Below are positions 1 to 64,000 of a DNA stretch of 64,000 nt, piece after piece (position 1 is the stretch's first letter; every line of letters starts with the position of its first letter). A program made the position numbers and the translations under genes. The DNA is from Tridacna crocea (taxonomy: Eukaryota; Mollusca; Bivalvia; Cardiida; Cardiidae). The DNA lies in NCBI GenBank assembly GCA_943736015.1, contig OX031058.1, positions 23,833,001 through 23,897,000 on the forward strand, read 5' to 3'. Under the pieces are notes generated by a model. It was given only the letters and a program-made list of their open reading frames with translations, did not search any database and was not told the DNA's origin.

Positions 1-62
1 TCTTGATCTACATTGCTATCCGAAAAAGCGTGTGTTTTCGCAGATGATGCCAAAAGGGTTAA
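1..62 (+). mobile_element. Pal-A3 right-end fragment
   Basis: The window opens inside the right end of a Pal-A3 element: tcttgatctacattg, then a diverged CCGAAAAAGCG stretch, ending aagggttaa. The rest lies outside the window. A Pal-A1 end starts on the same TTAA. Confidence 0.6.
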
Positions 63-140
63 CTTTTTGTCCACATGACAAAATTTTAGATTGGTCCAAA
101 TTGAATGCATTTGCAGACATAACTCTTGTTAAGGGTGGGG
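59..140 (-). mobile_element. Pal-A1 fragment
   Basis: Only the R arm remains (TTAACTTTTTGTCCACATGA, then a match to the 'gattggtccaaattgaatgc atttgcagac' region). The central hairpin and L arm are missing, so this is a truncated copy. Confidence 0.6.
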
Positions 141-319
141 ACTTTCTATATCAATTTATATGGATGTCTCAAACTTGTAAGAGTCAAAATTATGCATAAT
201 TATTATAGGGTTTATAATAGTATATTGAAAGAGGGATCTCGCTTATAAAGATCAATATCTATCTTACCTACTCTCTCTAGAATAAATAATTTTATGATGT
301 ATTTTAATCCACTAGAGCT

Positions 320-546
320 TTAACTCTTTACCAAATGACACATTTTTAAGCTGCTTCAAATTTAAAGCACTTGCAGACAACAAAATAAACATAACTTAGA
401 TATTGAAAATTGTTTTGAACAGGTGAGAAAACGTGGGAACAAATGAAATATTGGTTACCAGCATTTTTTTTCCTTTTCCCACAATATTTTCATAGTGCTT
501 CTACCTCAGGGTCGTTAAAACCAGGGATTTTGTCTTAAAGGGTTAA
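320..546 (-). mobile_element. Pal-A1 MITE, full length but diverged
   Basis: TTAA at both ends, 227 bp in all. The right hairpin arm is well kept and the left one is eroded (aacgtgggaacaaatg). Its right-hand TTAA (543-546) is also the left TTAA of the next fragment, giving a head-to-tail pair on one target. Confidence 0.85.
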
Positions 547-625
547 CTCTTGTGAAATGCAAAATTTTGGACTATTCTAAAATCCCTGCATTTGCAGAAA
601 TGTGCGTTCATTCACTGTGGTTCAA
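543..625 (-). mobile_element. Pal-A1 fragment sharing a TTAA
   Basis: R-arm remnant (ttaactcttgtgaaatgc, ctattctaaaat, catttgcagaaa) that stops before the hairpin. It begins on the TTAA that closes the preceding copy. Confidence 0.55.
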
Positions 626-762
626 ACTCTATGTTTGGGAGTCTAAAATTTTGTCCTCTGGTAAAGAAATTGAAGATTGTTATGATGTAAGGGAGAGGAA
701 CAGTAAGATTTTAACTTAAAATTACCATAGCTGGATTGACCTATATCAGTCAATAATAATAT

Positions 763-991
763 TTAACCCATTACCAAACGACAATATTTTAGACTGGTCC
801 AAATCAAAAGTATTTGCAGAGGACAAAGTAAAAGTGACGGAAAATTTGAAATTTGTTTTGTGAAGGGTAGAAAACATTGTGGGAAAAGGAGAAAATGCTG
901 GTTACCAGCATTTTCTCCTTTTCCCACAATGTTTTCTAAAGGCCTTTTTTTCAGGGGCGTCAAAAGTAGGGATTGTGTGGTAATGGGTTAA
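763..991 (-). mobile_element. Pal-A1 MITE, intact 229 bp reference copy
   Basis: A clean copy: TTAA-CCCATTACC at the left and GGTAATGGG-TTAA at the right. R arm with 'gactggtccaaatc' and 'atttgcagagg'; a hairpin of ~33 bp arms meeting at ctggttaccag (centre near 904); L arm with 'ttttttcaggggcgtcaaaa'. An open frame on the minus strand here is read-through of the palindrome, not a gene. Confidence 0.92.
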
Positions 992-1634
992 ATGGATTTA
1001 AAAGAACCTCTTGTATGGGTGTAGGTGGAGAATATGAATGCCCTATTTGGTAGATTAATATTGAAAACTTTACATATGCATAAGAAAGCTAATAGTATAT
1101 TACCTTATTACATCATGATAAATACTATTTTATGTACGGAATGAACATTTTAGCTTGGATAATTTCAAAGATGTTAGTATTGTCATTGCCCTATCATTGT
1201 TTGCTTTGACATTTTACATCTTTGTTGTTTCTGAAGGTATTTACTTCAAAATGGTTGCTGGTTGCTAACTGTCCAAAGGGATTGATACAATAGGGGCAGG
1301 TAACCTTCCAACTTTTTTTTGGACAAAGTTATGTCCTTTTACCAACTTAAAGTCAATCTCTAAAAGCAGCAGCAACCGACCAACCGTAGGCAACGCATTT
1401 GATAATTTCAGTGTTTTAGAAAGGGAATAGTCAAAGATCAGACATGTTTTCAGTTTAATTCTGATCTATGGTATGCCATATGCTATTAACCCTTTGTTTG
1501 TGTCAGTGGCACTGAAAAGGTTTTATGTTCACCAGTATCTGGCAGCTTTCTCAACATTGAAAACATAAGAAAACATTGTTGTAAAAAAGAGAAATTACTT
1601 GCAATAAGCAATATACTCATATCTTTTTTTTTTT
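992..1634. other. No recognised gene
   Basis: AT-rich sequence with no open frame over 60 codons. A short segment near 1300-1350 (ggtaacctt, then ggacaaagttatgtcc) recurs loosely near 2996-3030, so part may be an old dispersed repeat. Confidence 0.4.
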
Positions 1635-1643
1635 ATCATGATT
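1635..1643. repeat. Left 9-bp target-site duplication of M1
   Basis: atcatgatt, identical to 2194-2202. Confidence 0.85.
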
Positions 1644-2193
1644 CATCTTCGCAAACCAAGGATACTAACTCCACTTTGTTCGTTACGTACCTTGGCCGCT
1701 CGCCTCTTTAAAACTCGAAACTCCCGCTGCGCCACCTGTCAAATATTACGAGTTGCATAACCTTTTGCTGATGTTATTTCTGACCAATCAAAGTGCTCGT
1801 AATAAAATTTGTTGGCCATGTATCAAATGTGGCTGCGCTTTTGGATTCATCACGTCAAAAACAAGACGAACAGACTTACCATAATTCGCAATCATTTGGC
1901 TATAGAACCCGTCCTAATACTTCACATAATTGACCGTAAACTAAAAAAAACTCATTAAATATCGATCGTCTACTCTTTCTTGGCAAATTTTCGTCACAAA
2001 CACGACAACTTTCGTTTTTAATGGGCACCGCCATTATTGTTTTCTGTTTTGCGAAAGATTTCTTGTTACGGATGGTTTGATTGGACGCGATGGGTTTTGA
2101 TCGCGTCCAATGAAATGGCGCAGCAGGAGCTTCGATTTTTAAAGAGGCGAGCGGCCAAGGGTACTACCTTAGTATCCTTGGCTTGCGAAGATG
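1644..2193. mobile_element. 550 bp TIR element with 9-bp target duplication (MULE-like), M1
   Basis: The nonamer atcatgatt occurs at 1635-1643 and again, exactly, at 2194-2202. Between them the ends are inverted repeats of roughly 70 bp: CATCTTCGCAAACCAAGGAT at the left matches the reverse complement of the right end, continuing through ccttggccgctcgcctcttt. The centre encodes nothing recognised. Nine-bp duplications with long terminal repeats are typical of Mutator-like elements; with no transposase present this is inference. The open frame at 2037-2396 starts in this element and runs past its end into other repeats. Confidence 0.85.
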
Positions 2194-2202
2194 ATCATGA
2201 TT
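2194..2202. repeat. Right 9-bp target-site duplication of M1
   Basis: atcatgatt, identical to 1635-1643. Confidence 0.85.
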
Positions 2203-2268
2203 GTGCTGTTGTCTTTTATAGTAGCTTAGTTTTATGTGCCTGTTATGCAGAAATAGAGAATGAAGTAT

Positions 2269-2407
2269 TTAACCCTTTACAACATAATTCGGAGTCCAAC
2301 AACACTGAGGAAAACCTGGGTAAGGAGAAGTTGTTTACTAAGCATCATCTCCGTTTCTCACAATGTGTTTTACCCTATCAAAGTTTTGATGCCTGATATA
2401 GAGTTAA
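2269..2407. mobile_element. Decayed, shortened Pal-A copy
   Basis: Both TTAA ends survive (ttaaccctttac and gagttaa), with traces of the hairpin (gaaaacctgggtaagg and ctcacaatgtgtttta). Only 139 bp long, so internally deleted. Confidence 0.6.
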
Positions 2408-3038
2408 AAGATAGGTAACTACAGATTAATGTTTTCCACCTAAAGCCTGTGCTTTACATTTCCACTAGAATGATCATGAAATTTTTTAATTAGTACCCAC
2501 ACTGTAGGTTTTAGTAAAAAATAAGCAGATTTTATATTAGCTACCCTCACATGTACCTAACAGAATCTCCTCAGCAATTTGGATGAATGCAGTTGTTGTA
2601 TATGAGGTAATTAGTGTACTGTATAACATATGTTCCAGAGACTAAAGATAGAAACATTATTTTCTCTGGTGAAACAAGAATCTTTCCTTACCGAGGCCTG
2701 GCAAATAGGGCTATCTCTCAGGAATGATTAACAGGCTCACTTCTGAAGTGGTAGAATTGAATGTACTGTCAAAGTGTTGAAGCTGATCTTTGATTATTGT
2801 CCATCTTCAGCTCCATTTTTTTCTGGCTGTTTTTGAAGAAATCTGTGAGGTTTGTTGTTGGCCTGTTGTCTGCCTAATATCCCATGACTGTGAGAGAACT
2901 TTCCTTTTTTTTTATATCTTTGTCATGATTGTAGGTATTTTTCCAAATAAAGTGCTTATCATTAATTATTAAAATGGAAATCCATACAAGAATAGTAGGT
3001 AACCTTGAAAATATTTTGACAAAGTAATGTCCCTTTTT
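2408..3038. other. No recognised gene
   Basis: No domain, RNA or terminal-repeat structure seen. Small open frames at 2790-2972 (+) and 2874-3068 (-) overlap on opposite strands and resemble no protein I know. Confidence 0.35.
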
Positions 3039-3408
3039 TAAAGGGTGGCCCTTCAGATTTTGGGACAAAAATCTTACATAAATACAAAGTTATAATCTTT
3101 ATACTACCAAAGCCTTATAATTTTCATTCATAAAACCCCAGTAGTCGAAAACCATCCAACAACAAGAGAAATTAGAGATTTACTACAGCCCAGGTCGACG
3201 CCGATGGGAAACACGATCTATTTTTACATGAGCAACTCGCTCATTTACATACTGGAAATACACAGACAAAGCTTCAAACATAGCGTCCGAAGAAGACATG
3301 GAAAATAATTACATATTTGTTATATAAGCGTCATTAGTCACGTGCCAGACACTTAAACATTGCCACAATGCTTGTTTTGATGTTTGGCGCGAAATCTAAA
3401 AATAGCTC
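3039..3408 (+). repeat. Dispersed repeat W, copy 1
   Basis: About 370 bp from 'aagggtggcccttcag' to 'gcgcgaaatctaaaaatag', repeated in inverted orientation at 6156-6535. Shared landmarks include the cagcccaggtcgac/cctgggccgtag region, 'gcgtccgaagaagac' and 'cacgtgccag'. It is richer in CpG than its surroundings. I see no terminal inverted repeats, so the class is unknown. Confidence 0.85.
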
Positions 3409-3411
3409 AAC

Positions 3412-3475
3412 TCATTACCAGACAACATTATTTTAGACTTGTCCAAATCAAAAGCATTTGGACCTCTACCAAGCT
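3412..3475 (-). mobile_element. Pal-A1 R-arm fragment
   Basis: actcattaccagacaacatt, then tttagacttgtccaaatc and aaaagcatttg. It abuts repeat W and lacks the hairpin. Confidence 0.5.
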
Positions 3476-4225
3476 TTGAGAAAACTTATAAGTCTTCTTG
3501 TTCAAAACCATTTGGCCTAAAATTGTAATGTTTAGTCTGTATGGTTTGTACTTATTAGCCTGTGGAGCAATACCTGCCCAACATGTCCTTTTTCTGTTGT
3601 TAGTATTATCACAACAAATAATTTGGGAGAAGTATAGATACAGAGGATATTTTGGAAGCTTTTCAATCCTGAAGTATGGAATAATTGGGGAACAGTCAAG
3701 TGTGGAATTTTATTTGCACAGGTTTTGACTGCAGACAATAAATTACGTCTGTGCTATATCCATATTTATGTTCTTACTGCAGTAATTGACAGTGTGGCCT
3801 TGTTCGAGTTGTCTCCACTGTATTTTACAGGTATCTTTTATGCATGTATAATTACTATTTTCTTATTTTCCCATATTGTTTTCAAACAGCTTCTTTCTTA
3901 AGGGCTTAAGGTACTTATAAACTTGCTGGAATTGTAAATCTTTAAAAGGGAAAAACACCAGTAAGATAGTCTAGAAATAAGAGCAAATTAGTTGCATTTT
4001 CATGGTCACTTTTGTCTAAGGCATTTCAACAAAGTGGATTATGAAGATGAAAGGTTAGACTTCACATTTTCCGGTCTGATCTTGATCTGAATCACTGGCC
4101 TTAAAGGTAACTGTAGTTGTGAATGGCACTTTCAGGAGATATACTTTTAGACATGTCAATTATTCAAAGCATTCTAAGAAAATAAAAAGATTGAGCTTGT
4201 AAGGATTCTTTGAAAATGAAGGAAG
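3476..4225. other. No recognised gene
   Basis: Overlapping opposite-strand frames (3498-3728 and 3532-3738) are shadows of one another. Around 3850-3910 a faint Pal-A hairpin arm can be seen (tcttattttcccatattgtt). Nothing else recognised. Confidence 0.35.
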
Positions 4226-4360
4226 TATTTTAGGAATAGGAAAACAATCCAATTTCAAGCTTTTTCTCCTATTGCCTCAGTGTTTTCATAGCCTTCTTTC
4301 TCAGGTCTTCAAAACAGGGGAAAGTTAAGTAAAGAGTATTTGGTAACTAAAGGGTTTAGA
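4225..4360 (-). mobile_element. Decayed Pal-A1 right half
   Basis: Eroded hairpin (ggaaaacaatccaa and ctttttctcctattgcctca), then an L-arm remnant (agccttctttctcaggtctt) and a trace of the ggtaactaaagggttta end. Confidence 0.5.
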
Positions 4361-5460: not shown

Positions 5461-5464
5461 GGGA

Positions 5465-5710
5465 TATGTCTTTAAAATGGTAGGAAATATTGTCAGAAAA
5501 TGCTTTATATGAGTATTTTCTCCTTTTCCACAGAAGTTTTCGCAAACTTTTTACTTTAGGGTCCTTAAAACTATGGATTGTTTGGTAAAAAAAGGGATAA
5601 ATAAAGGATTAAATAAGGCTCATTGATGGGGTTCTGTCTATTGATAGGGTAGAAAACATTATGGAGAAAAAATGCTGGGTCCAACCACTTTTTCCTATGC
5701 CCAGAATGTT
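5465..5710. mobile_element. Two decayed Pal-A copies in series
   Basis: Hairpin remnants at 5485-5540 (aaatattgtcagaaaatgc, gtattttctccttttccaca) and 5648-5712 (gaaaacattatggagaaa, agaatgttttattaac) with L-arm text between (tttagggtccttaaaac, then ggattgtttggta). Confidence 0.5.
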
Positions 5711-5713
5711 TTA

Positions 5714-5944
5714 TTAACATTTTACCAAATAATAAAATATAAGCCTTGTCCAAATTGAAAGCATTTGCAGATCACAATATCAGCGTGGCTTGAAAGGTGC
5801 AATTTTTCATTGAAAGGGTAGAAAACATTGTGGGAACAGGAAGAAATGCTGGATTCCAGCATTTTCTTCTTTTCGCACAATTTTTTCAAAAGGCTTATTT
5901 CGGAGGGGCGTTTAAAGGTAGAATTGTGTGGTAAAATGGTTCAA
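5714..5944 (-). mobile_element. Pal-A1 MITE, full length
   Basis: 231 bp. R arm (ccttgtccaaattgaaagc), hairpin of gaaaacattgtgggaacagg type, L arm and a gtgtggtaaaatgg end. The right TTAA has decayed to TCAA. Confidence 0.8.
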
Positions 5945-6155
5945 GTATACCTCAGCTCTGTGATTAAAAACAGTGGGATTGTCTTAAAGGTGGGTATTTA
6001 GAATTTTTACATCTCACCAAATTAAAAAATATATATATATGACTGAAATTCATACGAAAAAATAATACAAGTCATCAATAATTAAGATTCATAAAATTAC
6101 AAAAAAAATGTTTTTTGATGGTATTCCCTTAAAAGGCTACGTAGCCTCTGAAGCT

Positions 6156-7704: not shown

Positions 7705-7714
7705 TGAATATGGG

Positions 7715-11140: not shown

Positions 11141-11385
11141 ACGATATACATTTTTGAACATGCTCAAAACTTCCCACCAGATAGAAAGGACGATATACAT
11201 TTTTGAACATGCTCAAAACTTCCCACTAGATGGAAAGGACGATATACGTTTTTGAACATGCTCAAAACTTCCCACCAGATGGAAAGGACGATATACGTTT
11301 TTGAACATGCTCAAAACTTCCCACCAGATGGAAAGGACGATATACGTTTTTGAACATGCTCAAAACTTCCCACCTGATGGAAAGG
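11141..11385 (+). repeat. 49-bp tandem array, five copies
   Basis: Five perfectly phased units, each starting acgatatac and ending gatggaaagg, with very few differences between copies (for example ataca/atacg). Units touch with no spacers. The array ends cleanly at ggacatcactgg. Confidence 0.95.
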
Positions 11386-11762
11386 ACATCACTGGACATC
11401 GCTGGACAAGTGGGGGATTCACCAATGTTAGAAGGCATCTTTGTTACAAGCAATTTTTTTGCCATTACACATAATGTTTTGAAAAGTTGTCTGCTGCTAG
11501 ACCATAAAATATTGTCCACAGGATGTTATCATAGTTAAAACAGTTAAAACAGTTACTGTTTGAGAAGACCAACAAAACATCCTCTTTTATTTCTAGATCT
11601 ATTAACCAGTTATTTACATATCTTAAACAGTGTGGAAAAGTATATTTTCACCGAGTCAACACCAAGGTTATGAGAAAATCGATGGTGGTCAAATTCATTT
11701 ATTGACAAGTATTTGCCTAACTGGCTCTATATCAGACAGAACAATTTTAGAGTCTTCCATTA

Positions 11763-14705: not shown

Positions 14706-15110
14706 AGAACAGGTATTGGAGAAAGGGCTTGGTGAAATTTCAACTGTTTATCTCAAAGTGAAGGACTTTGCCAATATGTTACATAGACAACTTTTTGAAA
14801 ATAATTTGACAAAAGGAGAAATTATGGCTGACAACTAATTTTTTCCCTGTGCCATAGTGTTTTCTAATGTATGTATAAGACCATAATTTGTTTTGATAAT
14901 GTATGATTTAAAAGGAAATTTTCAAGATTATCTGCTCCAAGTTTGTTTCAGCAAGTAAAATACAAAAAATTCTTTGACTGCTAAATAGATACAATTATTA
15001 TAAAGCCGCATGAGACCGAGGTGATTTCAAATTCTAAACTGCTCATGTAATAATATTCTGTAAATGAAATGGACAGTGTAGCCTCAAGATAAGACTGTTC
15101 ATTCTTTAAC
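14706..15110. other. No recognised gene
   Basis: A faint Pal-A-like hairpin at ~14770-14870 (ttgacaaaaggagaaatta, ttccctgtgccatagtg). Otherwise plain AT-rich sequence. Confidence 0.4.
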
Positions 15111-15115
15111 CCTTT

Positions 15116-15351
15116 CCCAAACAATCCCTGGTTTTTACGGGCCTGGAATAGTAGTTTTTTGAAAACAATGTTGGAAAAGGAGAAGATGCTGGTAACCAGC
15201 ATTTTTGCTGGTAACCAGCATTTTCTCCTTTTCCCACAATGTTTTCTACCCTATCATAGACAGAAATAATCTTTTCAGCAAGAGTTGAATTGGTGTCTGC
15301 AAATGCTTTGAATTTGGTCTAGTCCAAGTTTGTCGTTTGGAAAAGGGTTAA
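15116..15351 (+). mobile_element. Pal-A1 MITE with a duplicated hairpin tip
   Basis: Full ends. The centre reads ...gctggtaaccagcattttt followed by a second gctggtaaccagcatttt, so ~16 bp spanning the loop were copied in tandem. Its right TTAA is the left TTAA of a Pal-A2 copy. Confidence 0.88.
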
Positions 15352-15568
15352 CCCCTTTACGGCATAAGACATTTATATGGTATCTCTAATTGACCCTAAA
15401 TAACAGCAAGGATGAAGCTTTTCTAATGTGTATATGACACCTTTTGATAGCATAGAAAAACATTGTCACAAAAGTGAGTCACGAGCAATTTCACCTTTTG
15501 CCACAATGTTTTCCAAAGGCTCCTACAAGCAATGCGTAGAAATGAGTATCTATGGAGTAAAGGGTTAA
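15348..15568 (-). mobile_element. Pal-A2 MITE
   Basis: 221 bp. L and R arms differ from A1 (R arm has gtatctctaattgaccctaa; L arm has caatgcgtagaaatgagtat). Hairpin core uses agcaatttcaccttttgcca. The left hairpin arm is partly eroded here (acaaaagtgagtcacg). Confidence 0.88.
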
Positions 15569-22154: not shown

Positions 22155-22391
22155 TGAGCCATGCTCTGACATAAAGGGTCCTAGTGTATCTTCATAAATA
22201 TGGTACACAGTAAGCCATCACAAAGTTTTGGATCCATAATATCCACTTCTTTGAAAAACCAACTTAATCATGAGATAGACCGGTCCATGAGCATACAGAA
22301 AATTGATCAGTGGTGAAAAACTTTGGCTCTGGTCAGCCTGCACGGACTTTTCTAGATGCAATAAGCTCCTTTTTCATAGAGCCTGACTCAG
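22155..22391. mobile_element. Foldback family X, uninterrupted copy
   Basis: Ends tgagccatgctctgacataa (left) and agctcctttttcatagagcc (right) are inverted repeats. The interior has 'ctggtcagcctgcacggac', a shared X landmark also at 44188 and 55433. The 72-codon frame at 22310-22528 is read-through. Confidence 0.75.
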
Positions 22392-24326: not shown

Positions 24327-24555
24327 TTAACCCATTACCACAAAATCCCTACTTTTGACAACCCTGAGAAAGAAACCTTTTGAAAACATTGTGGGAAAAG
24401 GAGAAAATGCTGGTAACCAGCATTTTCTCCTTTTCCTACAATGTTTTCTACCCTTTGCAAAACAAATTTCAAATTTTCAGTCACATTTATTTTGTTGTTT
24501 GCAAATGCTTTCAATTTGGACTAGTCCAAACTTTTGTGGTGTGGTAAAGTGTTAA
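24327..24555 (+). mobile_element. Pal-A1 MITE, intact
   Basis: 229 bp with TTAA at both ends and all parts present: L arm, hairpin, R arm with gctttcaatttggactagtc. Confidence 0.92.
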
Positions 24556-29631: not shown

Positions 29632-29928
29632 CCCACCCAGTAGCTCAGTCAGTAGTGTGCAAGACTTGGGAACACTGGGGGTCCCAAGTTCGAACCTTTG
29701 CCCATCCAATTTTCTTTCTGAGGATTGATGATAGTCATTGTGACAGGATTCATTGCTCTCTCACTACTGACCATTGTTTTAATGTTCGTTATGTGGAAAA
29801 GCAGCCAGAGGTCTGAAAAGAATATTGTGTGGAGTGCAGGTTAACGAAAATCCAGGAAAGCATGGATGTGTGGATTGGCTGCCATGATATAACTGAAATA
29901 ATGTTGAAAATTCCATTAAACACCATAA
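29632..29928 (+). mobile_element. tRNA-derived SINE, near full length
   Basis: A-box tagctcagtcagtagtg and B-box aagttcgaacc give a recognisable tRNA-like head. The body has 'gatagtcattgtgacagg', and the 3' region 'ggctgccatgatataactga', aataatgttgaaaa and 'attaaacacc'. This head and tail combination is the basis for suggesting a molluscan host. The 81-codon frame at 29571-29816 is read-through. Confidence 0.82.
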
Positions 29929-30569: not shown

Positions 30570-31022
30570 AGTCAACCCTATACCAAACAATCTCCACATT
30601 GCTGACCTTAACTCTTTACCACACGAGAAAATTTTGGACTTGTCCAAATTGAAAGCATTTGCAGACGACAAAATAAAAGTGACTGAAAAATTGAAATTTG
30701 TCTTGTGAAGGGTAGAAAACATTGTGGGAAAAGGAGGAAATGCTGGTTACCAGCATTTTCTCCTTTTCCCACAATGTTTTCTAAAGGCTTCTTTCTCAGG
30801 GGCGTCAAAAGTAGGGATTGTGGGGTAATGGGTTAACTAAGAAGCCTTTTGAAAACAATGTGAGAAAAGCAGAAAATGCTAATAGCAAGCATTTCCTCCT
30901 TTTCCCACAATGGTTTCTAACCTAATAGATAAATCCTACCTCTTTAGTTACTTTTTACTTTCAGTCTGCAAATGAATTTCATTTGGCCATGTTGCAAATT
31001 TTGTCGTTTGGTAAAAAAGTTA
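30570..31022 (+). mobile_element. Outer Pal-A1 split by another Pal-A1
   Basis: Left: tcaaccctataccaaacaat and a partial L arm to 30607. Right, from 30837: ctaagaagccttttgaaaac, hairpin, R arm and a gtttggtaaaaaagtta end. Confidence 0.78.
30608..30836 (-). mobile_element. Inner Pal-A1 MITE, intact 229 bp
   Basis: TTAA at both ends; R arm, hairpin and L arm all close to the family consensus, so clearly younger than the copy that contains it. Confidence 0.92.
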
Positions 31023-31693: not shown

Positions 31694-31923
31694 GTTAACT
31701 CTTTACCACACAATCCCGACTTTTAATGACCCTGAGATGGAAGCCTTTTGGAAACATTGTGGGAAAAGGAGAAAATGCTGGTAACCAGCATTTTCTCCTT
31801 TTCCCACAATGTTTTCTACCCTGCTGGAAACAAATTTCAATTTTTGAGTTATATATAATTTGTCGTCTGCAAGTGCTTTCAATTTGGACCAGTCTACAAT
31901 TTTATTGTTTGGTAAAGAGTTAA
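31694..31923 (+). mobile_element. Pal-A1 MITE, intact 230 bp
   Basis: TTAA ends, L arm aatcccgacttttaatgacc, perfect-looking hairpin, R arm gtgctttcaatttggacc. Confidence 0.92.
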
Positions 31924-33179: not shown

Positions 33180-33408
33180 TTAACTCTTTACCAAACGACA
33201 AAATTGTAGACTGGTCCAAAGTCAAAGCACTTGCAGACAACAAATAACATGTAACTCAAAAATTGAAATTTGTTTCCAGCAGGGTAGTAAACATTGTGGG
33301 AAAAAGAGAAAATGCTGGTTACCAGCATTTTCTCCTTTTCCCACAATGTTTTCAAAAGCTTTTTATTTCAAGGTCGTTAAAAGTCAAGATTGTGTGGTAA
33401 AGGGTTAA
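33180..33408 (-). mobile_element. Pal-A1 MITE, intact 229 bp
   Basis: TTAACTCTTTACCAAACGAC to gtgtggtaaagggTTAA. Hairpin differs only at ggaaaaagag in the left arm. Confidence 0.92.
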
Positions 33409-34799: not shown

Positions 34800-35100
34800 A
34801 CCAATTATAGACTTTTAATGACCTTGCCATAGAAGCCCTTTTAACCCATTACCACACAATTCCTACTTTTGATGCCCCTGAGAAAGAAGCCTGTAGAAAA
34901 CATTGTGGGAAAAGGAGAAAATGCTGGTTTCCAGCATTTTCTCCTTTTCCCACAATGTTTTCTACCCTTTTACAAAACTAATTTCAAAATTTCAGTCACT
35001 TTTATTTTGTTGTCTGCAAATGCTTTCAATTTGGACGAGTCTAAAATATTGTCATTTGGTAATGGGTTAAAACATGGTTGAAAAAGGAGAAAATGATGCC
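34800..35100 (+). mobile_element. Outer Pal-A1 split by 34841-35070
   Basis: L-arm text (gacttttaatgaccttgcca, gaagccctt) to the left and aacatggttgaaaaaggaga to the right of the inner copy, so the insertion fell at the L-arm/hairpin junction. Confidence 0.72.
34841..35070 (+). mobile_element. Inner Pal-A1 MITE, intact
   Basis: 230 bp. Hairpin with paired change at the tip (ctggtttccag). TTAA both sides. Confidence 0.92.
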
Positions 35101-39644: not shown

Positions 39645-40639
39645 TCAGTACCTTGTGTGACTGCCATGAGCCTGAACCACTGCCTCACAACGATGAAGTA
39701 TGAAGCCAACAAGCTGCTGAATGTTGTTTTGTGGAATGTTCCGCCATTCTTCCTTGAGGGCAGCACAAAGTTCTCGGAGATTCTGAGGTGGTTGACATCG
39801 CTTACAGACACGTCGATCTAGGACATCCCAAAGATGCTTGATTGGAGACAGATCTACGGACAAGCTGGCCACAGCAAGACTGCAGTGTTGGTTTGTTGTA
39901 TAAAGTTCTGACAGACACGGGCTACGTGAGGTCTGGCATTATCTTGCTGTAACACGCAGCCATTTGTGTTCATGAAGGGATGAACATGACGTTGAAGAAT
40001 CTCCTCTCGATACCGGATAGTGTTTAGAGTCCCATCAACATGAATAAGAGCTGTTCTGCCATCGTGCCGTATTCTTGCCCACACCATTACGCTGCCACCA
40101 CCAAAACGATGGACTTCCTGTACACAATTCGCAGTGTTAACATTCCCCACATTGTCGTAAACATGTGAAGGACCATCGGTTCGTTTCAACAGAAAATGGG
40201 ACTTGTCTGTGAAAAGGACAGCCCTCCACTGATTCCTGGTCCATCTACACCTCAATTTGCACCAGTAAAGACGTTCAGCACGGTGACGTGGGGTTAATAC
40301 ATTACGTCAAACGGGTCTTCTAGCTGCAAGTCTGGCCCCTTGTAGCCAGTTCCGCACAGTCTGGTCCGAGATTCTGTGCAGTCCAGGAACTTCTGTAGTT
40401 GTTGAGCTTGCGGTAAGGGTCTGGTGACGCAAATGCTGCAGTAATATGTTGCGGTCCTGGGCGACTGTAGTTGTTCTTGTTTGCCCCGACGTTGCTCTGT
40501 CCTGGACGCTTTGAGTTGAGTTATACTGACGCCAGAGGTTGGAGATTGTCTGTCTTGATACACCAAAGTGGTTTGCTACAGTTCCTGCTTGTAGCTGCTC
40601 AATTGCATTCTGATGTTATTCATCTGTCTATTTCAGCAT
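39645..40639 (-). pseudogene. Tc1-family DD34E transposase, inactive
   Basis: The encoded enzyme would cut and paste its own element in the nucleus. Reading from 40639: an N-terminal helix-turn-helix region (QLQAGTVANHFGVSRQTISN, about residues 15-34), a second DNA-binding segment (ISDQTVRNWL), then the catalytic domain with LFTDKSHF (first Asp), GGGSVMVWA, and QQDNARPHVA (second Asp). The expected Glu, 34 residues further on, is Lys in SPIKHLWD. Further lesions: two stops just after the start (MLK then TAG; TDE then TAA), TGA at 40307-40309 where CGA is likely original, and a one-base frameshift near 39855-39870 between WPA and DLSP. Length (~331 codons) is typical. It cannot make active enzyme. 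Confidence 0.93.
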
Positions 40640-42156: not shown

Positions 42157-42385
42157 TTAACTCTTTACCACACGAGAAAATTTTAGACTAGTCCAAATTG
42201 AAAGCATTTGCAGACAACAAAATAAAGGTGACTGAAAAATTAAAATTTGGTTTGGGAAGGGTAAAAAACACTGTGGGAAAAGGAGAAAATGCTGGTTACC
42301 AGCATTTTCTCCGTTTCCCACAGTGTTTTCAAAAGGCTCCTTTCTCAGGGTCGTTAAAAGTCGGGATTGTGTGGTAAAGAGTTAA
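42157..42385 (-). mobile_element. Pal-A1 MITE, intact 229 bp
   Basis: cactgtgg/ccacagtg variant with both arms matching. One right-arm change, ctccgtttccc. TTAA both ends. Confidence 0.92.
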
Positions 42386-42512: not shown

Positions 42513-42732
42513 TTAGCTCTTTACTAGAACACAATGAACTGAATTTATTCCAGTTGAATGCATTTGCAGACAACATAATGTGGCTAAAATGATATTTATC
42601 CAGGATAGGATAGAAAACTTAGTGGGCAAACGAGAAAATGCTGTTACCAGCATTTTCTCCTTTTCCCTCTATGTTTTCAAAAGCTGTCTTTCCAAGGTTT
42701 TTCAGAACATGATAATGTTTGGCATAGTTTAA
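42513..42732 (-). mobile_element. Pal-A1 MITE, diverged
   Basis: agctctttactagaacacaa start, R arm, hairpin (acttagtgggcaaacgagaa) and an L arm ending gcatagtttaa, shared with the next copy. Confidence 0.8.
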
Positions 42733-42961
42733 CTCTTTACCACACGAGAAAATTTTAGACTGGTCCAAATTGAAAGCATTTGCAGACGACAAAAATAAAG
42801 TTGACTGAAAAATTGAAATTTGTTCTGGGAGGGGTAGAAAACACTGTGGGAAAAGGAAAAAATGCTGGTTACCAGCATTTTCTCCTTTTCCCACAGTGTT
42901 TTCAAAAGACTTCTTTCTCAGGGGCGTCAATTTTAGTAGGGATTGTGTGGTAATGGGTTAA
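42729..42961 (-). mobile_element. Pal-A1 MITE, intact
   Basis: 233 bp, cactgtgg/ccacagtg variant, beginning on the TTAA that ends the previous copy. Right end gtgtggtaatgggTTAA. Confidence 0.92.
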
Positions 42962-49998: not shown

Positions 49999-50415
49999 AG
50001 GTCCGTTTTCATGAACGATTCTTAACTCTTTACCAAATGACAAACTTTTTAGACTTGTACGAATTGAAAACATTTTCAGATGACAAAATAAACGTATCTC
50101 AAAAATTGAAAGTTGTTTATAGCAGGAAAGAACACATAGGAAATGGAGAAAATGCTGATTACCAGTATTTTCTTCCTTTCCCACCTTGTTTTTAAAAGGC
50201 TTCTATCTCGGGGTCCTAAAAACCAGGGATTTTTGGGTAAAGGGTTAAGAAATTGTTTAGTCTTTTTCTCCAGAGTTTTGTTATTGAAGGTAGTAGCATA
50301 TCATCTAATCGGTGAAACTGTTTGGCTTAGCCAATCAGAAGTAGTGTTATTTTCAAAGTGAGAAAATCTTAAAGGGTAAGACAAAGATTGATTTGCTGTT
50401 GAATACAGTTCCAGA
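49999..50415. mobile_element. Foldback family Z, split by Pal-A1
   Basis: aggtccgttttcatgaacga at the left; after the insertion the Z interior resumes (gaaactgtttggcttagcca, atcagaagtagtgttat) and fades at gaatacagttcc. The insertion lies exactly in the TTAA of Z's ttcttaagaa. Confidence 0.85.
50022..50248 (-). mobile_element. Pal-A1 MITE nested in Z, clearest TTAA duplication
   Basis: Flanks gattcTTAA and TTAAgaaatt against the intact Z sequence gttcTTAAgaata (23360-23372). The element is 227 bp with duplications included. Confidence 0.93.
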
Positions 50416-51156: not shown

Positions 51157-51266
51157 GTTATTTTCCAAAGCACTCTTCCTCTTAGGGTTTCTAAATATTA
51201 TACTTACGAGAGGGAAAGTATGATTATTTGAATGTCTCAAAAAAAAGTTACTTTGATGATATTATA

Positions 51267-51717
51267 CACGGCGGGGAATCACGTGACACAACAACAACAA
51301 CAATGACCGTTATTTGAAAAAATTCCCCAATTTCTGGTAAGAAAATCTTCAATAATTCCGTTAATACATGACCGATTGGAATTTGGTTTGAAGCAGAGAA
51401 GGCGGAAGGACTCCAGGGATTTGCTTGATGTGTTAGATTTTTTAAACAACACCTGATAAAAAAGTTATTGACGAGCAAACAAATTATCCAGGGTAAAAAA
51501 TTTGTTTGCTCGTCAATAACTTTTTTATCAGGTGTTGTTTAAAAAATCTAACACATCAAGCAAATCCCTGGAGTCCTTTCGCCTTCTCTGCTTCAAACCA
51601 AATTCCAATCGGTCATGTATTAACGGAATTATTGAAGATTTTCTTACCTGAAGTCGGGGAATTTTTTTAAATATCGGTCATTGTTGTTGTTGTTGTGTCA
51701 CGTGATTCCCCGCCGTG
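51267..51717. mobile_element. Nearly perfect 451 bp palindrome FB1
   Basis: Arms of about 215 bp match with only a handful of differences around a short loop (ttatccagggtaaaaaa, centre ~51492). Ends CACGGCGGGGAATCACGTGA; flanked by ttata at 51262-51266 and 51718-51722. An (ACA)n/(TGT)n run sits in each arm. The arms' similarity points to recent origin or arm-to-arm correction. Superfamily not assigned. The frame at 51248-51478 lies in one arm and is not a gene. Confidence 0.92.
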
Positions 51718-51722
51718 TTATA

Positions 51723-53312: not shown

Positions 53313-53530
53313 TTAACCCTTTACCACATGATCCCAACTGTTAATGACCCTGAGATAGAAGCCTAATGAAAACACAGGAAAAGGAGAAATGCTTGTAACT
53401 AGCATTTACTCCTTTTCCCACTATGACCCTTCCTAATATAAATTTCAAATTTTTAGTCACTTTTATTTTGTCGTCTGCAAATGCTTTCAATTTGGACCAG
53501 CCTAAAATTTGTCGTTCAGTAAAGAGTTAA
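53313..53530 (+). mobile_element. Pal-A1 MITE
   Basis: 218 bp; hairpin shortened on both sides (acaggaaaaggagaaatgct, tttactccttttcccactatg). Right TTAA shared with the next copy. Confidence 0.87.
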
Positions 53531-53751
53531 TCCTTTACCACATGGCAAGATTTTAGACATATCCAAATTGAAAGCTTTTGCAGACAATAATTTTATAGTG
53601 GCTCAAATAACACAATTTTTCTATGACAGGGTAGAAAACTTTGTAGGTAAAAGAGAAAATGCTGTTCACTAGCATTTTCTCCTTTTCCCTCAATTTTTCA
53701 AAAAAACTTCTTCAGGGTCGTAAAAGTCGTCATTGTGTAGTAAAGGATTAA
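53527..53751 (-). mobile_element. Pal-A1 MITE sharing TTAA, opposite orientation
   Basis: ttaatcctttaccacatggc to gtagtaaaggattaa. R arm ctcaaataacacaatttttc is a variant; hairpin present. Confidence 0.85.
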
Positions 53752-54379: not shown

Positions 54380-54608
54380 GTAACCCTTTACTCCATAGAT
54401 ACTCATTTCTATGCATTGCTCGTGGGAGCCTTTGGAAAACATTGTGGCAAAAGGTGAAATTGCTCGTGACGAGCAATTTCACCTTTTGCCACAGTGTTTT
54501 CTACACTATCATGAGGTGTCATATACACATAAGAAACAGCTTCATCCTTGATGTTATTTTGGGTCAATTAGAGATACCATAGAAATGCCTTATGGGGTAA
54601 AGGGTTAA
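54380..54608 (+). mobile_element. Pal-A2 MITE, intact 229 bp reference copy
   Basis: L arm ctccatagatactcatttct; hairpin left arm gaaaacattgtggcaaaagg then tgaaattgctcgtg, with matching right arm; R arm cattatacacataagaaac-type text and ggtcaattagagataccata. Left flank GTAA, right TTAA. Confidence 0.92.
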
Positions 54609-57290: not shown

Positions 57291-57293
57291 TTA

Positions 57294-59335: not shown

Positions 59336-59337
59336 CA

Positions 59338-59567
59338 GTTATCCCTTTACCCCATAAAGTATTTCTATGGTATCTCTAACTGACTTTAAATAAAAGCAAG
59401 GATGAAGCAGTTCCTTATGTGTATATGACACCTTTTGATAGTGTAGAAAACATTGTGGCAAAAGGTGAAATTGCTCGTGACGAGCAATTTCACCTTTTGC
59501 CACAATGTTTTCCAAAAGCAACTACAAGCAATGCGTGGAAATGAGTATCTATGGAGTAAAGGGTTAA
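59338..59567 (-). mobile_element. Pal-A2 MITE, intact
   Basis: R arm first (cataaagtatttctatggta), then a perfect hairpin meeting at ctcgtgacgag (~59475), L arm caatgcgtggaaatgagtat. Left TTAA decayed to TTAT. Confidence 0.92.
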
Positions 59568-59756
59568 AAGAAGAAACTAAAAATTCATGTTAACAAAAAA
59601 ATCAGAGGTATTTGGCAGTATTTGTTAGTGTTTATAAAAAAAAAACAGATTTAATATAAGAAAGCCCTAGTACCAATATAACCTTTTTCAGAGGATACAA
59701 TGTATTATGTCATGTAAATTGACATGTTGGGTTCTTTAATGAATGAAATGGTTGTT

Positions 59757-59985
59757 GAACTTGTTACTCAATGACAGAAATTTAGACCTGTTTACTTTGA
59801 AAGCTTTAACAGAACACAAATTGAATGTGACTCAGTTGACAAGATTTTTCTTTGAAAGAATAGAAAAAAGTAAGGGAAAAGTAGATAAGCTGATAACCAG
59901 CTTTTTTTCCCCTGTCCCAACTGTTTACAGAACCCCAAATCCTTAGGGCTGTTGAAAAATTGGGGTTATTTTGTAGAGAGTGAAG
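59757..59985 (-). mobile_element. Decayed Pal-A1 copy, full span
   Basis: acttgttactcaatgacaga, R arm gacctgtttactttgaaagc, hairpin (agtaagggaaaagtagataa, gctgataaccagc), L arm agggctgttgaaaaattggg, ttttgtagagagtga end. Confidence 0.7.
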
Positions 59986-59989
59986 CTTG

Positions 59990-60455
59990 TCAAGTGTGGT
60001 TAATTATTCTCTTTGCATCCACTGTTGCAGTCTAGAAGAGCATAAATGATGCTATTGCATCTGATTTGTTATTGTAAATCAATACTTACTCTGACAATAC
60101 AAGATTAATCTGGACGCTCATGCATTAGGAAAGCTATCTACAAATCCCCAGTTAACCCTTAAACCACTTATTACAACTTACCTTGCCTATGCTGCATTTG
60201 AAGTAAACAGAAGTAAGGTCTGATTGCAAAAATCATGCAGCTTTATCACTGATCTGTCCATAGTCTGCTTTTCTCAGACATACTGGACATAAGCAGCCTT
60301 GAAAATGAAATTATTTTAGTCTTATGTCTGGACTAAAAATCTTCTTTAGGATTATCCAGTGCTCTTTAGAAGGGTTAAATGTAGACAGTTATAACATTTA
60401 GACAGAAATTCCCCCTCTGAATATTTTTATACCCTGGCAACATTTAGAAACTTTT
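59990..60455. other. Pal-A3-like debris, no gene
   Basis: ttaacccttaaaccacttat at 60152, then gtaaggtctgattgcaaaaa and atcactgatctgtccatag: a worn Pal-A3. No end found. Confidence 0.4.
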
Positions 60456-60460
60456 CATGA

Positions 60461-60560
60461 GTGTATTGATTGATTTAAAAGTGTATTTTGCCCCTTTCAA
60501 CATTATTTCAGTCATACAATGTCTACAGCTCATCTATTTATGGGTTTTACCAGTTCTAGG
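60461..60560 (-). mobile_element. SINE tail, minus strand
   Basis: Reversed: tgactgaaataatgttgaaa, then gggcaaaatacac and aaatcaatcaatac. It matches the tail type at 29900. The head was not found with confidence; a plus-strand tRNA-like stretch at 60694-60765 (gagctacagtttactag, tgtttgattctc) may be separate. Confidence 0.6.
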
Positions 60561-60765
60561 TCAGGGCTCTTACATATCTTTCCGAAGGACACTCCCAAAA
60601 AAGTGTATCTAACACCAGATTTCTCACAACTTCGACCCTAATAACATTGTATTGATGCATTCATTGGTATCATTTAGACATTTTTGTTGATGGAGCTACA
60701 GTTTACTAGTAAGATGCACATGTAACAGTCTAAAGGTCTTATGTTTGATTCTCAGCTTTGAAATT

Positions 60766-61230
60766 GTGTTTACTTCCTATTACTGTTAGTTCCTAAAATT
60801 ATACCAAGTTTACAAAAGGCACAATGGGTCTGTTTGAAGAACAGCAAAGTCAAACATGCACAAAGTATTCTTGTATACATTTTTTTCTTTAAAACTTCAT
60901 ACCACTTGATTTTGGAAAACAGAATAATTTTAATCCTTGGCCATGTGGGCAATATGGGCACTTGGCCCATAAAATGTTAAGATAAAAGCTATGTAGAGAC
61001 ATGTTGGAACAAATTTAGTTTATTAAGCATTCATAGGCTTTTTGTGCAATATTTCATTCTAGGATGCTGTAAAATGGTAAAAGTCAATAAAGCTTGTTTC
61101 CCAGACTTTAGCAAAGAAAACATGCTCTGAATTCCCAGAATCCATTCCAGTTATAATGTTTATTGTGTTGTTTTTATTATTCCACTGTTTGTAATAAGGC
61201 TGATGTTTGGTTCACTGTTCAGAACTGGGG
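60766..61230. other. No recognised gene
   Basis: The minus frame at 60770-60970 is unrecognised. No structure. Confidence 0.35.
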
Positions 61231-61234
61231 CTCC

Positions 61235-61274
61235 ATTATGTTACATTATGTTACAATCTGTTACATTTTGTTAC
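61235..61274 (+). repeat. 10-bp tandem repeat, four units
   Basis: attatgttac, attatgttac, aatctgttac, attttgttac in succession. Confidence 0.9.
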
Positions 61275-61410
61275 ATGAATAAAGCTTCAGACTCTGCATG
61301 ATTTATCATTTACCTTATAAATAATGTCGTTTGACTATTTATCAGATGGCAAAACAGTAGATTTGTCCGTTTTAGAGAGCTCCTTGCATTCTTTCCTTTC
61401 TCTTGATTTC

Positions 61411-61638
61411 TTAACCCTTTACCACACAATGACTACTTTCGATGACCCTGTGATGGGGGCCTTTTGAAAACATTGTGGGAAAAGGAGAAAATGCTGGTAA
61501 CCAGCATTTTCTCCGTTTCCCCAATGTTTTTTACCCTTCACCGAAAAAAAAATCAAATTTTCAGTAACTTTTATTTTGTCATCTGCACATGCTTTCGATA
61601 TGGACCATGGTATAAATTTGTCGTTTGGTATAGAGTTA
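61411..61638 (+). mobile_element. Pal-A1 MITE, intact 228 bp
   Basis: L arm aatgactactttcgatgacc; hairpin right arm carries tccgtttcccc; TTAA both ends. Confidence 0.91.
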
Positions 61639-61704
61639 AAGCCTTCTTTTATTAATGGACATGAAAAAAATCTTTTAGATGGGATTCAGTAATGGACTTA
61701 TTTG

Positions 61705-62152
61705 TTAATTCCTTACCACTGAAACCATAGAAATGTAGATTTGTCCAAATTGAAAGCATTTGCAGACATTATTTACATGTGACTCAAATAATAGAACATG
61801 TCTTTAACCCTTTACCCCATAGATAGTCATTTCTATGCATTGCTTGAATGAGCCTTTGGAAAACATCGGTGAAATTGCTCGTGACAGACAATTTCACCTT
61901 TTGTCACAATGTTTTCTATGCTATCAAAGGTGTCATATACACATAAGAAACGGTTTCATCCTTGCTCTTATTATGGGTCAATTAGAGATACCATAGAAAT
62001 GCCTTATGGGGAAAAGGGTTAAAAGATTAGAAAACATGTTGGGAAAAAGAGAAAATGCCAGCAGTATTCATTTCCCCACAATCCTCTCAAAAGGGTTCTT
62101 CCTGAGGATCTTTTAAAACAATGTGATTGTTTGGTAAAAGGGAATAAAAAAT
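61705..62152 (-). mobile_element. Pal-A1 copy split by Pal-A2
   Basis: R arm to catgtct at 61802, then after the insertion aagattagaaaacatgttgg, hairpin remnant, L arm and a gtttggtaaaagggaat end. Confidence 0.82.
61803..62022 (+). mobile_element. Pal-A2 MITE nested in Pal-A1
   Basis: 220 bp between TTAA at 61803-61806 and 62019-62022. Left hairpin arm shortened (aacatcggtgaaattgctcg). It shows that Pal-A2 moved after at least one Pal-A1 insertion. Confidence 0.9.
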
Positions 62153-62224
62153 AGCAGATTAATTTGCAAGAATCTGTTCAAAGTTTGTAAAATAGGGATA
62201 CTTGGTTTGAAATTTGTTAATGTA

Positions 62225-62410
62225 TAGTACAGCTAGGTGGAAACATTGTGGCATATTGGAAAATATGTTTGTTAAGGGCTATTTTTGTTCAACATACAAA
62301 AACTACATGCAGCTTAAGTATTTCTCTTTGCTGAAAGCATGTTCTATAATTATTTTAGTCACTTTTTGATTTCATATGCTTTTGAATTTTTTCCTCTGGT
62401 AAAGGGTTAA
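62225..62410 (+). mobile_element. Decayed Pal-A1 right part
   Basis: gtggaaacattgtggcatat, then agtcactttttgatttcata and tttcctctggtaaagggttaa. Confidence 0.6.
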
Positions 62411-62599
62411 TAGATGATTATTATTATAGTATTAGCAATCTTGTATTTATTGTCAATAAGATGATGATGCCCTTTGAAGTTTATTGACTTATTATGATTT
62501 GTACAATAAACATTTACAATAGCATTACATCTAACAGATTGAAACAGATGGACTTGGACCAAATTTGTTATGTCTAGCTTTCTGTACTTTGCAGAGCAG

Positions 62600-62828
62600 T
62601 TAACCCATTACCACACAATGACACCTTTTAACGACCCTGAGAAAGAAGCCATATGAAAACATTGTGGGAAAAGGAGAAAATGCTGGTTACCAGCATTTTC
62701 TCCTTTTACCACAAAGTTTTCTACCCTATCAAGGAAAATTGGGATCATTTGCACCACTAAGAAATTGTTGCCTGCAAATGCTTTCAATTTGGATAAGTCT
62801 AAAATTTTCCTGTGTAGTAAATGGTTAA
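62600..62828 (+). mobile_element. Pal-A1 MITE, intact 229 bp
   Basis: L arm aatgacaccttttaacgacc, hairpin, and a variant R arm (gggatcatttgcaccactaa) that also occurs at 34145, marking a sub-lineage. Confidence 0.91.
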
Positions 62829-63030
62829 ACTTGAAGCTGCTTGACATGACTCACTGACCTTTTGCAGACAGTGTAGATCAAGATCATTCTGTGCAGTATG
62901 ATCTTGGATTTACGCTATGCGATAAAGACTTTTTTTTCCACCCAAAAAAAAAGTTAGAAATAGCAATTATGCAACTTTTTACTATTGCCTTGAAAGTTAC
63001 ATTTAAGTTATTTAGAAGCATTAGGGTTTA
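62825..63030 (-). mobile_element. Pal-A3 MITE, reversed
   Basis: Begins on the TTAA that closes the preceding Pal-A1; gctgcttgacatgactcact, gacagtgtagatcaagatca, cagtatgatcttggatttac. The far end is lost after atttaagttatttagaagca. Confidence 0.75.
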
Positions 63031-63139
63031 TATCCCCTAAAAATTATACTGTACCAAGAATATAAATATTTATAGATGCTGGATTAAAATTGCAGTAGTT
63101 TTGTTGTTGCAATAATATCAGAAAAAACTGATCAATGTA

Positions 63140-63995
63140 ATGGCAAAATCTTATTGTTGATTGAGTAGAAAACATTTTAAGAAAAGGAAAAAAGTACTCA
63201 GGTTAAGGCGCTGTCATACTCTAACGTATAGAGCCAGCGTATGAGGAACGTGTGGACTTTTTGGGTATACGCTGACATACGCTGAAACACGCTAGGGGTA
63301 CGCTGGAATACGTTTCTAGTACGCCGGGGTTCGTCGGTATACGCTGATGTACGTTGACGGCCAAAAAATTTTTTGAACATGCACAAAAATTTTCAGCGTA
63401 TGCCGACGTATGAATTTTACGCTCCTCATACGTTCCTCATATGCTGAACACGCTAGAGGTTCGCTGAAGGTGCGTTGCTCATAAGTCGAGTACGCATCTT
63501 ATACGTTGAAATTGAATGGGTCAGGAAACCTAGCGTTAGAGGAGCATAAAATGAACGTGTGTCTGACGTGTGTCTAATGAATAGCTAACGTTATAATGGT
63601 AGTTTTAACGACAGTCTAACGTACTCAACTTATACCTAATGTGCTCTGAGCGTACAGCCAACTTATCCCATGCGTATTACATGCGTATTTCCAGCGTATT
63701 GGGGGGGGGGGTGTCTCACATTTCCAAATCTGTATCAGTTTTGTACCAGCAGTTCAGAGATGGAGGTTGCTGTGCTGCAACATCACCAAGATTTGTTACA
63801 GTTGACAGTTGATCTCATACGCTGAAAAATTGCACGTATAAACAATGTTTCGAAATATTTGACACGTTCCTCATACGCTGGCTCTATACGCTAGAATGTG
63901 ACAGCGCCTTTACCAGTATATCTTCTATTTCCATAATGTTTTCAAAGGGCTTCCTCCTCAGGGTCATAAAATCTGGAATGTATGATAAAGTGTTA
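63140..63995 (-). mobile_element. Pal-A1 copy split at its hairpin centre by H1
   Basis: gtagaaaacattttaagaaa, ggaaaaaagtactcagg to 63202; after the insertion ccagtatatcttctatttcc, ataatgttttcaaagggctt, and a tgataaagtgTTAA end at 63995. Confidence 0.82.
63206..63909 (-). mobile_element. CGTA-lattice element H1, copy 2
   Basis: 704 bp, reverse complement of 12134-12835 along its whole length (with a G tract at ~63701 matching the C14 tract), flanked by TTA at 63203-63205 and 63910-63912. The empty site would read caggTTAccag, the centre of a Pal-A1 hairpin. Confidence 0.9.
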
Positions 63996-64000
63996 AGCAA

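Follow-up and report, generated by a model that had tools for sequence, protein, structure and literature searches.

A 64,000-nt stretch of the Tridacna crocea genome (contig OX031058.1:23,833,001–23,897,000; hereinafter the window; the genome comprises 1.05 Gb in 31 contigs) is crowded with copies of a short repeat with a central hairpin, the Pal-A family, and raises the question of what kind of element this is, which transposase moves it, and why the hairpin is kept. The evidence assembled here supports its classification as a piggyBac-type miniature inverted-repeat transposable element (MITE). Taken as a whole, the account that we consider fairly probable is that of a piggyBac MITE moved in trans, likely by an autonomous element that we named PB7.2 in the case of its subfamily A1, with the hairpin selected in cis.

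The 24 window copies used to build a search profile share one alignment layout, namely a 13-bp end, a left arm, the central hairpin, a right arm, and a second 13-bp end. Searching the window with this profile gave 90 non-overlapping pieces (38 full length), which cover 16,365 of its 64,000 bases (25.6%); at the same threshold it gave zero matches in the reversed window and in five first-order Markov simulations. Some of these pieces are two halves of a single copy (e.g., 15106–15205 and 15206–15351), and the count of more than 60 whole or partial copies given in an earlier note on this DNA was thus a fair one; the five copies named there (763–991, 24327–24555, 30608–30836, 33180–33408, and 50022–50248) are all real and have the same layout. 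Termini matching TTAACCCTTTACC with at most two mismatches number 103 in the window, as against 2.52 expected, and none of 100 shuffles had as many. In the window and the additional loci described below, 54 of 84 distinct left-right end pairs lying 150–300 bp apart span 226–233 bp. The consensus sequences of subfamilies A1 and A2 are each 229 bp long with the hairpin at 108–174, in agreement with the standard length of 227–231 bp proposed earlier and with a central hairpin of about 66 bp (67 nt as measured) set between unlike arms. The family had also been called palindromic, which is apt for the 13-bp ends and the central hairpin and does not hold for the element as a whole.

Genome-wide, exact TTAACCCTTTACC occurs 66,634 + 66,849 times (reversed-pattern control: 28 + 20) and the exact end TTAACYCWTTACC 239,418 + 239,487 = 478,905 times (control: 104 + 94), whereas the perfect A1 hairpin core AAAATGCTGGTNACCAGCATTTT is found at 261,851 places and the perfect A2 core at 29,913 (control: 0 for each). 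The window, with 18 A1 cores and 42 exact ends where the genome average predicts about 16 and 29, is thus fairly typical of the genome in its Pal-A density. Extrapolating from this one window rather than by measurement, Pal-A may make up very roughly 18–23% of the genome. The family has the hallmarks of a MITE: it is short, uniform, present in high copy number, and shares its ends with an autonomous element (PB7.2). It is also non-coding: 14 of the 15 stop-to-stop frames of at least 110 amino acids (aa) in the window lack a Pfam match, and the remaining one, with a weak DDE_3 match, lies outside every Pal-A piece.

Further copies came from a non-random sample of 296.8 kb in 74 records, some with overlapping loci, drawn from the window and from loci around exact ends, around piggyBac genes, and around exact hairpins. 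Removal of exact duplicates reduced 131 copies to 106, nested copies common to the PB7.2 paralogues L034, L037, and L039 being kept. The conservation tests used 93 copies, the 13 of the 106 that had served as hairpin bait being excluded; the tally of double changes used all 106, and the nearest-neighbor count of copy-private changes 71 of the 93.

Among the 106 distinct full-length copies, TTAA flanks both ends in 64, one end in 34, and neither in 8. The four bases outside the TTAA agree between left and right at 25%, i.e., at chance level, and the duplication is therefore TTAA and nothing more. The terminal inverted repeats (TIRs) are 13 bp long, begin with CCC or CTC, and are of the CCY type; the CTC variant, which deviates from CCY at the second base, recurs at the right end of PB7.2. 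Asymmetric ends are frequent, a CT-type left end being combined with a CC-type right end in at least 31 of 83 A1 copies (counted over the 20 commonest combinations). The earlier note had read TTAA with CCC...GGG ends as the piggyBac pattern, had proposed a search for an autonomous element with the same ends, and had named a different transposase type or non-TTAA duplications as signs to the contrary. The pattern is borne out both by the TTAA-only duplication and by the recovery of a same-ended element, PB7.2, whose transposase is of the DDE_Tnp_1_7 kind (PF13843, e-value 2.7 × 10–88). Kolobok elements likewise generate TTAA duplications, according to PMC6004289, and membership of Pal-A in that or another TTAA superfamily was considered on this account; the same paper gives Kolobok ends as AG/RR-type, whereas those of Pal-A are CCC/CTC and the same-ended element carries a piggyBac transposase. 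We accordingly rejected Kolobok, to which we assign hardly any probability. A comparison of paralogues for empty sites yielded 115 candidate pairs. For one MITE (L033), seven uninterrupted relatives read TTTA rather than TTAA at the site, and in another pair (L046 against the window near 22264) the uninterrupted copy has one TTAA but the right end of the insert shows no clear TIR; most of the other pairs listed set MITE against MITE or were unclear; both cases are weak and are not relied upon.

PF13843 matches fall in 118 stretches of the genome, and 30 loci were fetched. One family accounts for seven of them (L025–L029, L034, and L037), its repeat spanning the whole 4.1-kb locus in six and part of it in L037; L025–L029 share a stop-free frame of 492 aa, while 462 aa are open in L034 and the frame of L037 has two stops. 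In two 10-kb stretches the complete element, PB7.2, measures 7,203 bp (e.g., L039:267–7469, with the 492-aa open frame) and runs from TTAACCCATTACC to GGTAATGAGTTAA, the copies on C5 and C9 being 99.9% alike. Its frame covers all 349 positions of the PF13843 profile and matches the solved transposases piggyBat (8.2 × 10–40) and piggyBac (3.3 × 10–36); the three regions that we take to hold the catalytic aspartates are aligned in the match to piggyBat. The left end TTAACCCATTACC begins six of the seven loci, and the far end was located at six of the seven, five of which end in GGTAATGAGTTAA with TTAA. The flanks differ between all loci, and copies sit TTAA-flanked at unrelated places. Genome-wide, exact matches to the 24-base left end number six. 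By their near-identity, the copies of PB7.2 appear young. Its coding region is probably split by an intron; a putative upstream acidic exon, proposed by look only (L039:3153–3524), has no Pfam match. PB7.2 harbors seven nested Pal-A pieces and one further, weak piece; because of these we infer that its lineage was resident in the genome while the MITE spread and that it multiplied recently. At the C17 locus (L079), a PB7.2 copy has a MITE end as its left flank, and its target was apparently the TTAA that bounded a MITE already present there. The left end of PB7.2 (L039:267–466) contains imperfect tandem repeats of about 35 bp, seen as self-matches, with CTTTTGACGCCCC, and TGACG occurs there at bp 26, 61, and 131.

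Other piggyBac families with different ends are present at L011, L013–L023, and L031–L033. One has the ends TTAACCCTTTATATAC and a length of about 2,765 bp, with most copy pairs 96–99.9% alike; the remaining ends are TTAACCCTAGTCATGC, TTAACCCATTTATGCC, and TTAACCCTTTCAGYGC. Some of these families are apparently young as well.

Which of these elements moves the MITE at present can be approached through its own subfamilies. A1 copies can be divided by their right ends: the 24 copies of the ATT group differ from their own consensus by a median of 7.8%, the 56 of the CTTT group by 15.8%; A2, at 5.7% over 10 copies, is also young. The ends of the A1 ATT consensus, TTAACTCATTACC on the left and TTAACCCATTACC on the right, are the right and left 13-bp ends of PB7.2, respectively. 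Beyond the TIR, the A1 ATT right end matches PB7.2 at 18 of 25 bases, a value reached in 1 of 20,000 shuffles, and in a comparison with five autonomous families with defined ends the A1 right end scores 28 with PB7.2 and 17 with the next best. TGACG begins 26 bp from the cut in both PB7.2 and the A1 consensus. On this sequence evidence, PB7.2 is most likely the present mobilizer of A1.

Several observations weigh against this assignment. The A1 left end beyond the TIR matches PB7.2 at only 4 of 25 bases and scores 14 with another family as against 12 with PB7.2; the gapped likeness of A1 to PB7.2 beyond the TIR, one of 40 comparisons tabulated, had a shuffle rate of 34 in 1,000; the exact CTCA/CCCA end pair of PB7.2 is found in 5 of 83 A1 copies, end types being mixed; and only 14 of 93 copies have an exact TGACG, the CTTT consensus reading TAACG there. 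A2 fits PB7.2 poorly (11 of 25 bases, 941 of 20,000 shuffles; left end, 27 of 1,000), and its mobilizer was not found among the autonomous families with defined ends, a comparison that omitted piggyBac loci lacking such ends (e.g., L009, L010, L012, L024, and L036). The link between A1 and PB7.2 is one of end likeness. On the account proposed here, Pal-A would be moved in trans by a piggyBac transposase, A1 now by that of PB7.2, which would bind the 13-bp ends and perhaps also the TGACG site 26 bp inside one end, cut at TTAA, and reinsert the element at another TTAA. Like piggyBac (IFP2) and piggyBat, PB7.2 combines a DDE_Tnp_1_7 domain with a TTAA duplication and 13-bp ends. In IFP2, as given in PMC7351741, the second cysteine-rich domain (CRD) site of the left end, TGACGCATG, lies at bp 27–35, beside which the TGACG from bp 26 of the PB7.2 left end may be set as a putative site. 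PB7.2 differs from IFP2 and piggyBat in its length of 7.2 kb, its seemingly intron-split coding region, and its nested Pal-A pieces.

The hairpin is a part of Pal-A separate from its ends. Its 67 nt comprise 33 complementary positions around one central base and fold into 32 pairs with a 3-nt loop (–51.7 kcal/mol, z –15.3), the A1 and A2 hairpins being alike in fold (about –52 kcal/mol, z about –15). In ungapped comparison of the A1 and A2 consensus sequences, the TIRs agree at 13/13 and 12/13 positions (25/26) and the hairpin at 58/67 (87%), as against 38–48% in the arms (left, 36/94, with 25 of 2,000 shuffles as good; right, 20/42, with 0 of 2,000). With gaps allowed beyond the TIR, the left arms are no better than shuffles (146/500) and the right arms are better (1/500). 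The nine hairpin differences comprise the one central base and eight stem positions that form four compensated pairs, all of them flips (G-C to C-G, A-T to T-A twice, and G-C to C-G); in sum, the stem differs at 8/66 positions and the arms at 80/136. At stem pair 115/167, 13 of 93 copies have C-G in place of T-A, a fifth compensated change, which marks a third subfamily: its carriers are related (mean arm distance 0.215 versus 0.372 for all copies). Single changes at this pair occur in 12 copies (6 TG, 3 CA, and 3 TT). Carriers of eight kinds of single change (3–9 copies each; the two commonest being A-C at 120/162 and at 121/161 with 9 copies each) have arm distances of 0.357–0.463, no closer than average, and the single changes checked therefore look like repeated independent hits rather than subfamily marks. 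Every stem position is paired in the consensus of the ATT group and in that of the 115CG copies. In the 93 copies, which were not chosen by their hairpin, Watson-Crick pairing at stem pairs 112–136 reaches 86.7% in register versus 33–42% when slid by 1–3. TIR-like motifs inside the stem were tried as candidates: matches to CCCTTTACC (7/9) and CCCATTACC (6/9) are common among 2,000 shuffles (A1, 366 and 984; A2, 171 and 689, respectively), and the idea was dropped, while a longer string, CCCTTTACCACACAAT, matches at 11/16 (34 of 2,000 for A1, 23 for A2), a weak result uncorrected for several tries.

The hairpin could be an unrelated palindromic element, such as a mariner-type relic with TA flanks, that entered an ancestral piggyBac MITE and would owe its conservation solely to recent capture or to recombination that exchanged it between the two subfamilies. 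Some copies do read TA-GAAAAC...GTTTTC-TA, and the A1 and A2 arms are hardly alike, what likeness there is on the right sitting near the hairpin and the TIR. However, a strong free-standing hairpin was not found, only 9 of 337 pieces (7 distinct places, 22.6–39.6 bits, all weak) matching in the hairpin region alone; the two subfamilies agree in length and in where the hairpin sits, with left arms in register slightly above chance; and recent capture leaves the compensated changes unexplained. We regard such an origin as improbable. The hairpin profile matches PB7.2 only where MITE pieces are nested and at the terminus of the element itself, so that the hairpin is dispensable for transposition as such, a point against the role proposed below.

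A second question is whether selection or mutation keeps the pairing. Palindromes may correct themselves, one arm being copied from the other by template switching, so that the hairpin would stay perfect in the absence of selection. This reading gains from the fact that four of the five subfamily changes are double transversions with no wobble intermediate, for which one mutation and one templated event would suffice; from the genome-wide paired double mutants, which exceed the number expected under independence by factors of 3.44 (232 occurrences) and 3.02 (364); and from the copy-private changes, which are rarer in stems (0.043–0.055) than in arms (0.082–0.089) and near the rate of the TIRs (0.053). 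Within the Pal-A copy 15106–15351, moreover, the hairpin centre is exactly duplicated in tandem as two 19-bp units (15187–15224), which may record a slippage event and indicates that replication can slip there. Yet unpaired double mutants of the same two changes (464) already stand at 2.57 times expectation, presumably due to copies differing in age, and the surplus that pairing adds is 58 where singles number 8,410 and 54 where they number 11,237 (about 0.5–0.7%). That paired doubles only slightly exceed unpaired ones argues that mending of resident copies is rare (about 1% or less) at the two stem positions tested, which seems too little to keep the stems perfect across the A1–A2 split. Correction limited to the transposition step is possible. 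Among double changes in all 106 copies, 70 of 93 are Watson-Crick, most being the five common changes; we estimate the others to be near the expectation of independent, transition-rich mutation. Overall, self-repair strikes us as unlikely, if less so than capture.

Selection of the hairpin in cis, in turn, draws on the contrast between recent and long-term divergence. Among copies the hairpin/arm divergence ratio is a mild 0.63–0.76 (three bins, 46 disjoint copy pairs), whereas between the A1 and A2 consensus sequences the stem is strongly constrained, and for this reason the strong pairing constraint seems to be located in the source lineages, as if pairing aids copying. Some points count against this: paired double mutants do lie slightly above the unpaired control; because copy-private changes are also rarer in stems, part of the stem slowdown may be mutational or come from unresolved subfamilies; and the long-term constraint rests on a single deep comparison, that of A1 with A2 (9–10 A2 copies). 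On the selective account, the hairpin would be a cis structure separate from the ends, its pairing kept by selection in transposing lineages while resident copies decay. Cut-and-paste elements gain copies through replication, and the hairpin would act as DNA, as a cruciform or a lagging-strand hairpin during replication, raising mobility or copy gain; both the selection of a cis structure in the mobile lineage and its action as a DNA hairpin are proposals.

Action as RNA is another way in which pairing could be favored, a precursor microRNA (pre-miRNA)-like transcript, or one forming small interfering RNA (siRNA), tuning silencing to the advantage of the element. The size and fold (67 nt, about –52 kcal/mol) are pre-miRNA-like, and MADE1 MITEs gave rise to mir-548, as reported in PMC1784062. 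An Rfam search of the window at gathering scores, however, produced no match; single changes show no wobble preference (105 wobble-forming versus 101 mirror-image transitions, decayed copies making this a weak test); and four of the five fixed changes lack a wobble intermediate. We therefore hold an RNA role to be about as improbable as capture. Pal-A resembles MADE1/mir-548 in that a MITE makes a short hairpin but differs in that its hairpin is internal and unrelated to the terminal repeats. The MADE1 hairpin is the whole element, built from its terminal repeats.

As a piggyBac MITE, Pal-A is ordinary in kind and striking in number, and at about a quarter of the window it shapes the genome. 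That its hairpin was kept by compensated change though the arms largely lost their likeness suggests that it helps the element to spread. More tentatively, and at somewhat less than even chances, the hairpin may be a third cis-acting part besides the ends and the subterminal sites, peculiar to the MITE, which raises its transposition or copy gain. If so, it would help explain how so few autonomous copies (the exact left end at six places) exist alongside more than a quarter-million MITEs, and would bear on the old open question of why some MITEs outnumber their autonomous parents many thousands to one. The internal part of Pal-A has a definite, testable shape, a perfect hairpin, beside a candidate partner with an uninterrupted transposase frame, and an effect of the hairpin on MITE spread thereby becomes directly testable.

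The closest precedent is provided by the CMITEs, which PMC2872659 describes in two corals, Acropora millepora and A. palmata, as piggyBac-type MITEs of about 100 bp with a 75-bp internal region, estimated at 1,600 copies; the internal region is more conserved between families than the ends, and its origin and function had stayed unexplained there. CMITEs are like Pal-A in that they duplicate TTAA, have ends of the CCC type, share their genome with piggyBac transposase genes, contain a conserved internal region with no clear counterpart in the autonomous element, and form tandem arrays (PMC2872659). Unlike Pal-A, their 60-bp internal consensus folds no better than shuffles (z –0.57), and a blastn search for it in the window and loci (296.8 kb; E ≤0.01) gave no match. 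Pal-A, on its side, has a hairpin of 33 complementary positions with compensated changes, arms of 94 and 42 bp between hairpin and ends, and hundreds of thousands of copies; it differs in sequence, size, and structure and is not a CMITE. The earlier note's view of an internal hairpin as an unusual feature in a piggyBac MITE hence stands with a qualification: a conserved internal region has a precedent in CMITEs, one whose consensus does not fold better than shuffles. T2-MITE/Xmix of Xenopus, a Kolobok group, is another abundant MITE group with a TTAA duplication but has AGGRR ends and a different transposase superfamily (PMC6004289), and the words "hairpin" and "palindrom-" are absent from the main text of that article. 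In the open-access literature, repeat databases being outside the search, we found no piggyBac MITE with a conserved or compensated internal hairpin, and six Pal-A motif strings had no occurrence there in a transposon context. To our knowledge, internal hairpins with compensated changes have not been described in piggyBac MITEs.

The individual window copies illustrate these variants. Full-length A1 copies with ATT-type ends are found at 763–991 (+ strand; TIRs 763–775 and 979–991, 67-nt hairpin at 870–936, + strand) and 34841–35070 (–), and one with an ATT-type right end at 42729–42961 (+); the latter and the full-length A1 copy at 42157–42385 (+) carry the compensated T-A to C-G change at 115/167. 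Further full-length A1 copies lie at 24327–24555 (–), 31695–31923 (–), 33180–33408 (+), and 30608–30836 (+), the last having the top profile score in the window (247.0 bits) and asymmetric ends (TTAACTC/TTAACCC); the hairpin of the full-length A1 copy at 50022–50248 (+) is partly decayed. Full-length A2 copies at 54380–54608 (–), with unlike arms, and 59339–59567 (+) both show the four compensated pair flips. With 471 TTAA sites in the window, many of them MITE ends, insertion of MITEs into MITE ends is to be expected. Twelve of 89 adjacent piece pairs abut; one of these joins falls inside a copy that its own duplication divides, and weak pieces of about 60 bp take part in three. For instance, two copies lie end to end with one common TTAA at 53313–53751 (53313–53530, –; 53527–53751, +), and the Pal-A copy 15106–15351, which the profile splits in two, adjoins an A2 copy at 15348–15568 (together 15106–15568).

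Beyond Pal-A, the window contains a near-perfect palindrome at 51266–51718 with 220-nt arms (97% complementary) and a 13-nt spacer, which the Pal-A profile does not match and which looks like a separate foldback-type element. A 150-aa open frame at 39854–40306 (–), with a weak DDE_3 match (8.6 × 10–5) below the curated cut-off, is by its look a Tc1/mariner-like transposase remnant. A tandem array at 11141–11387 has a 49-bp period and five copies, with 97% matches.

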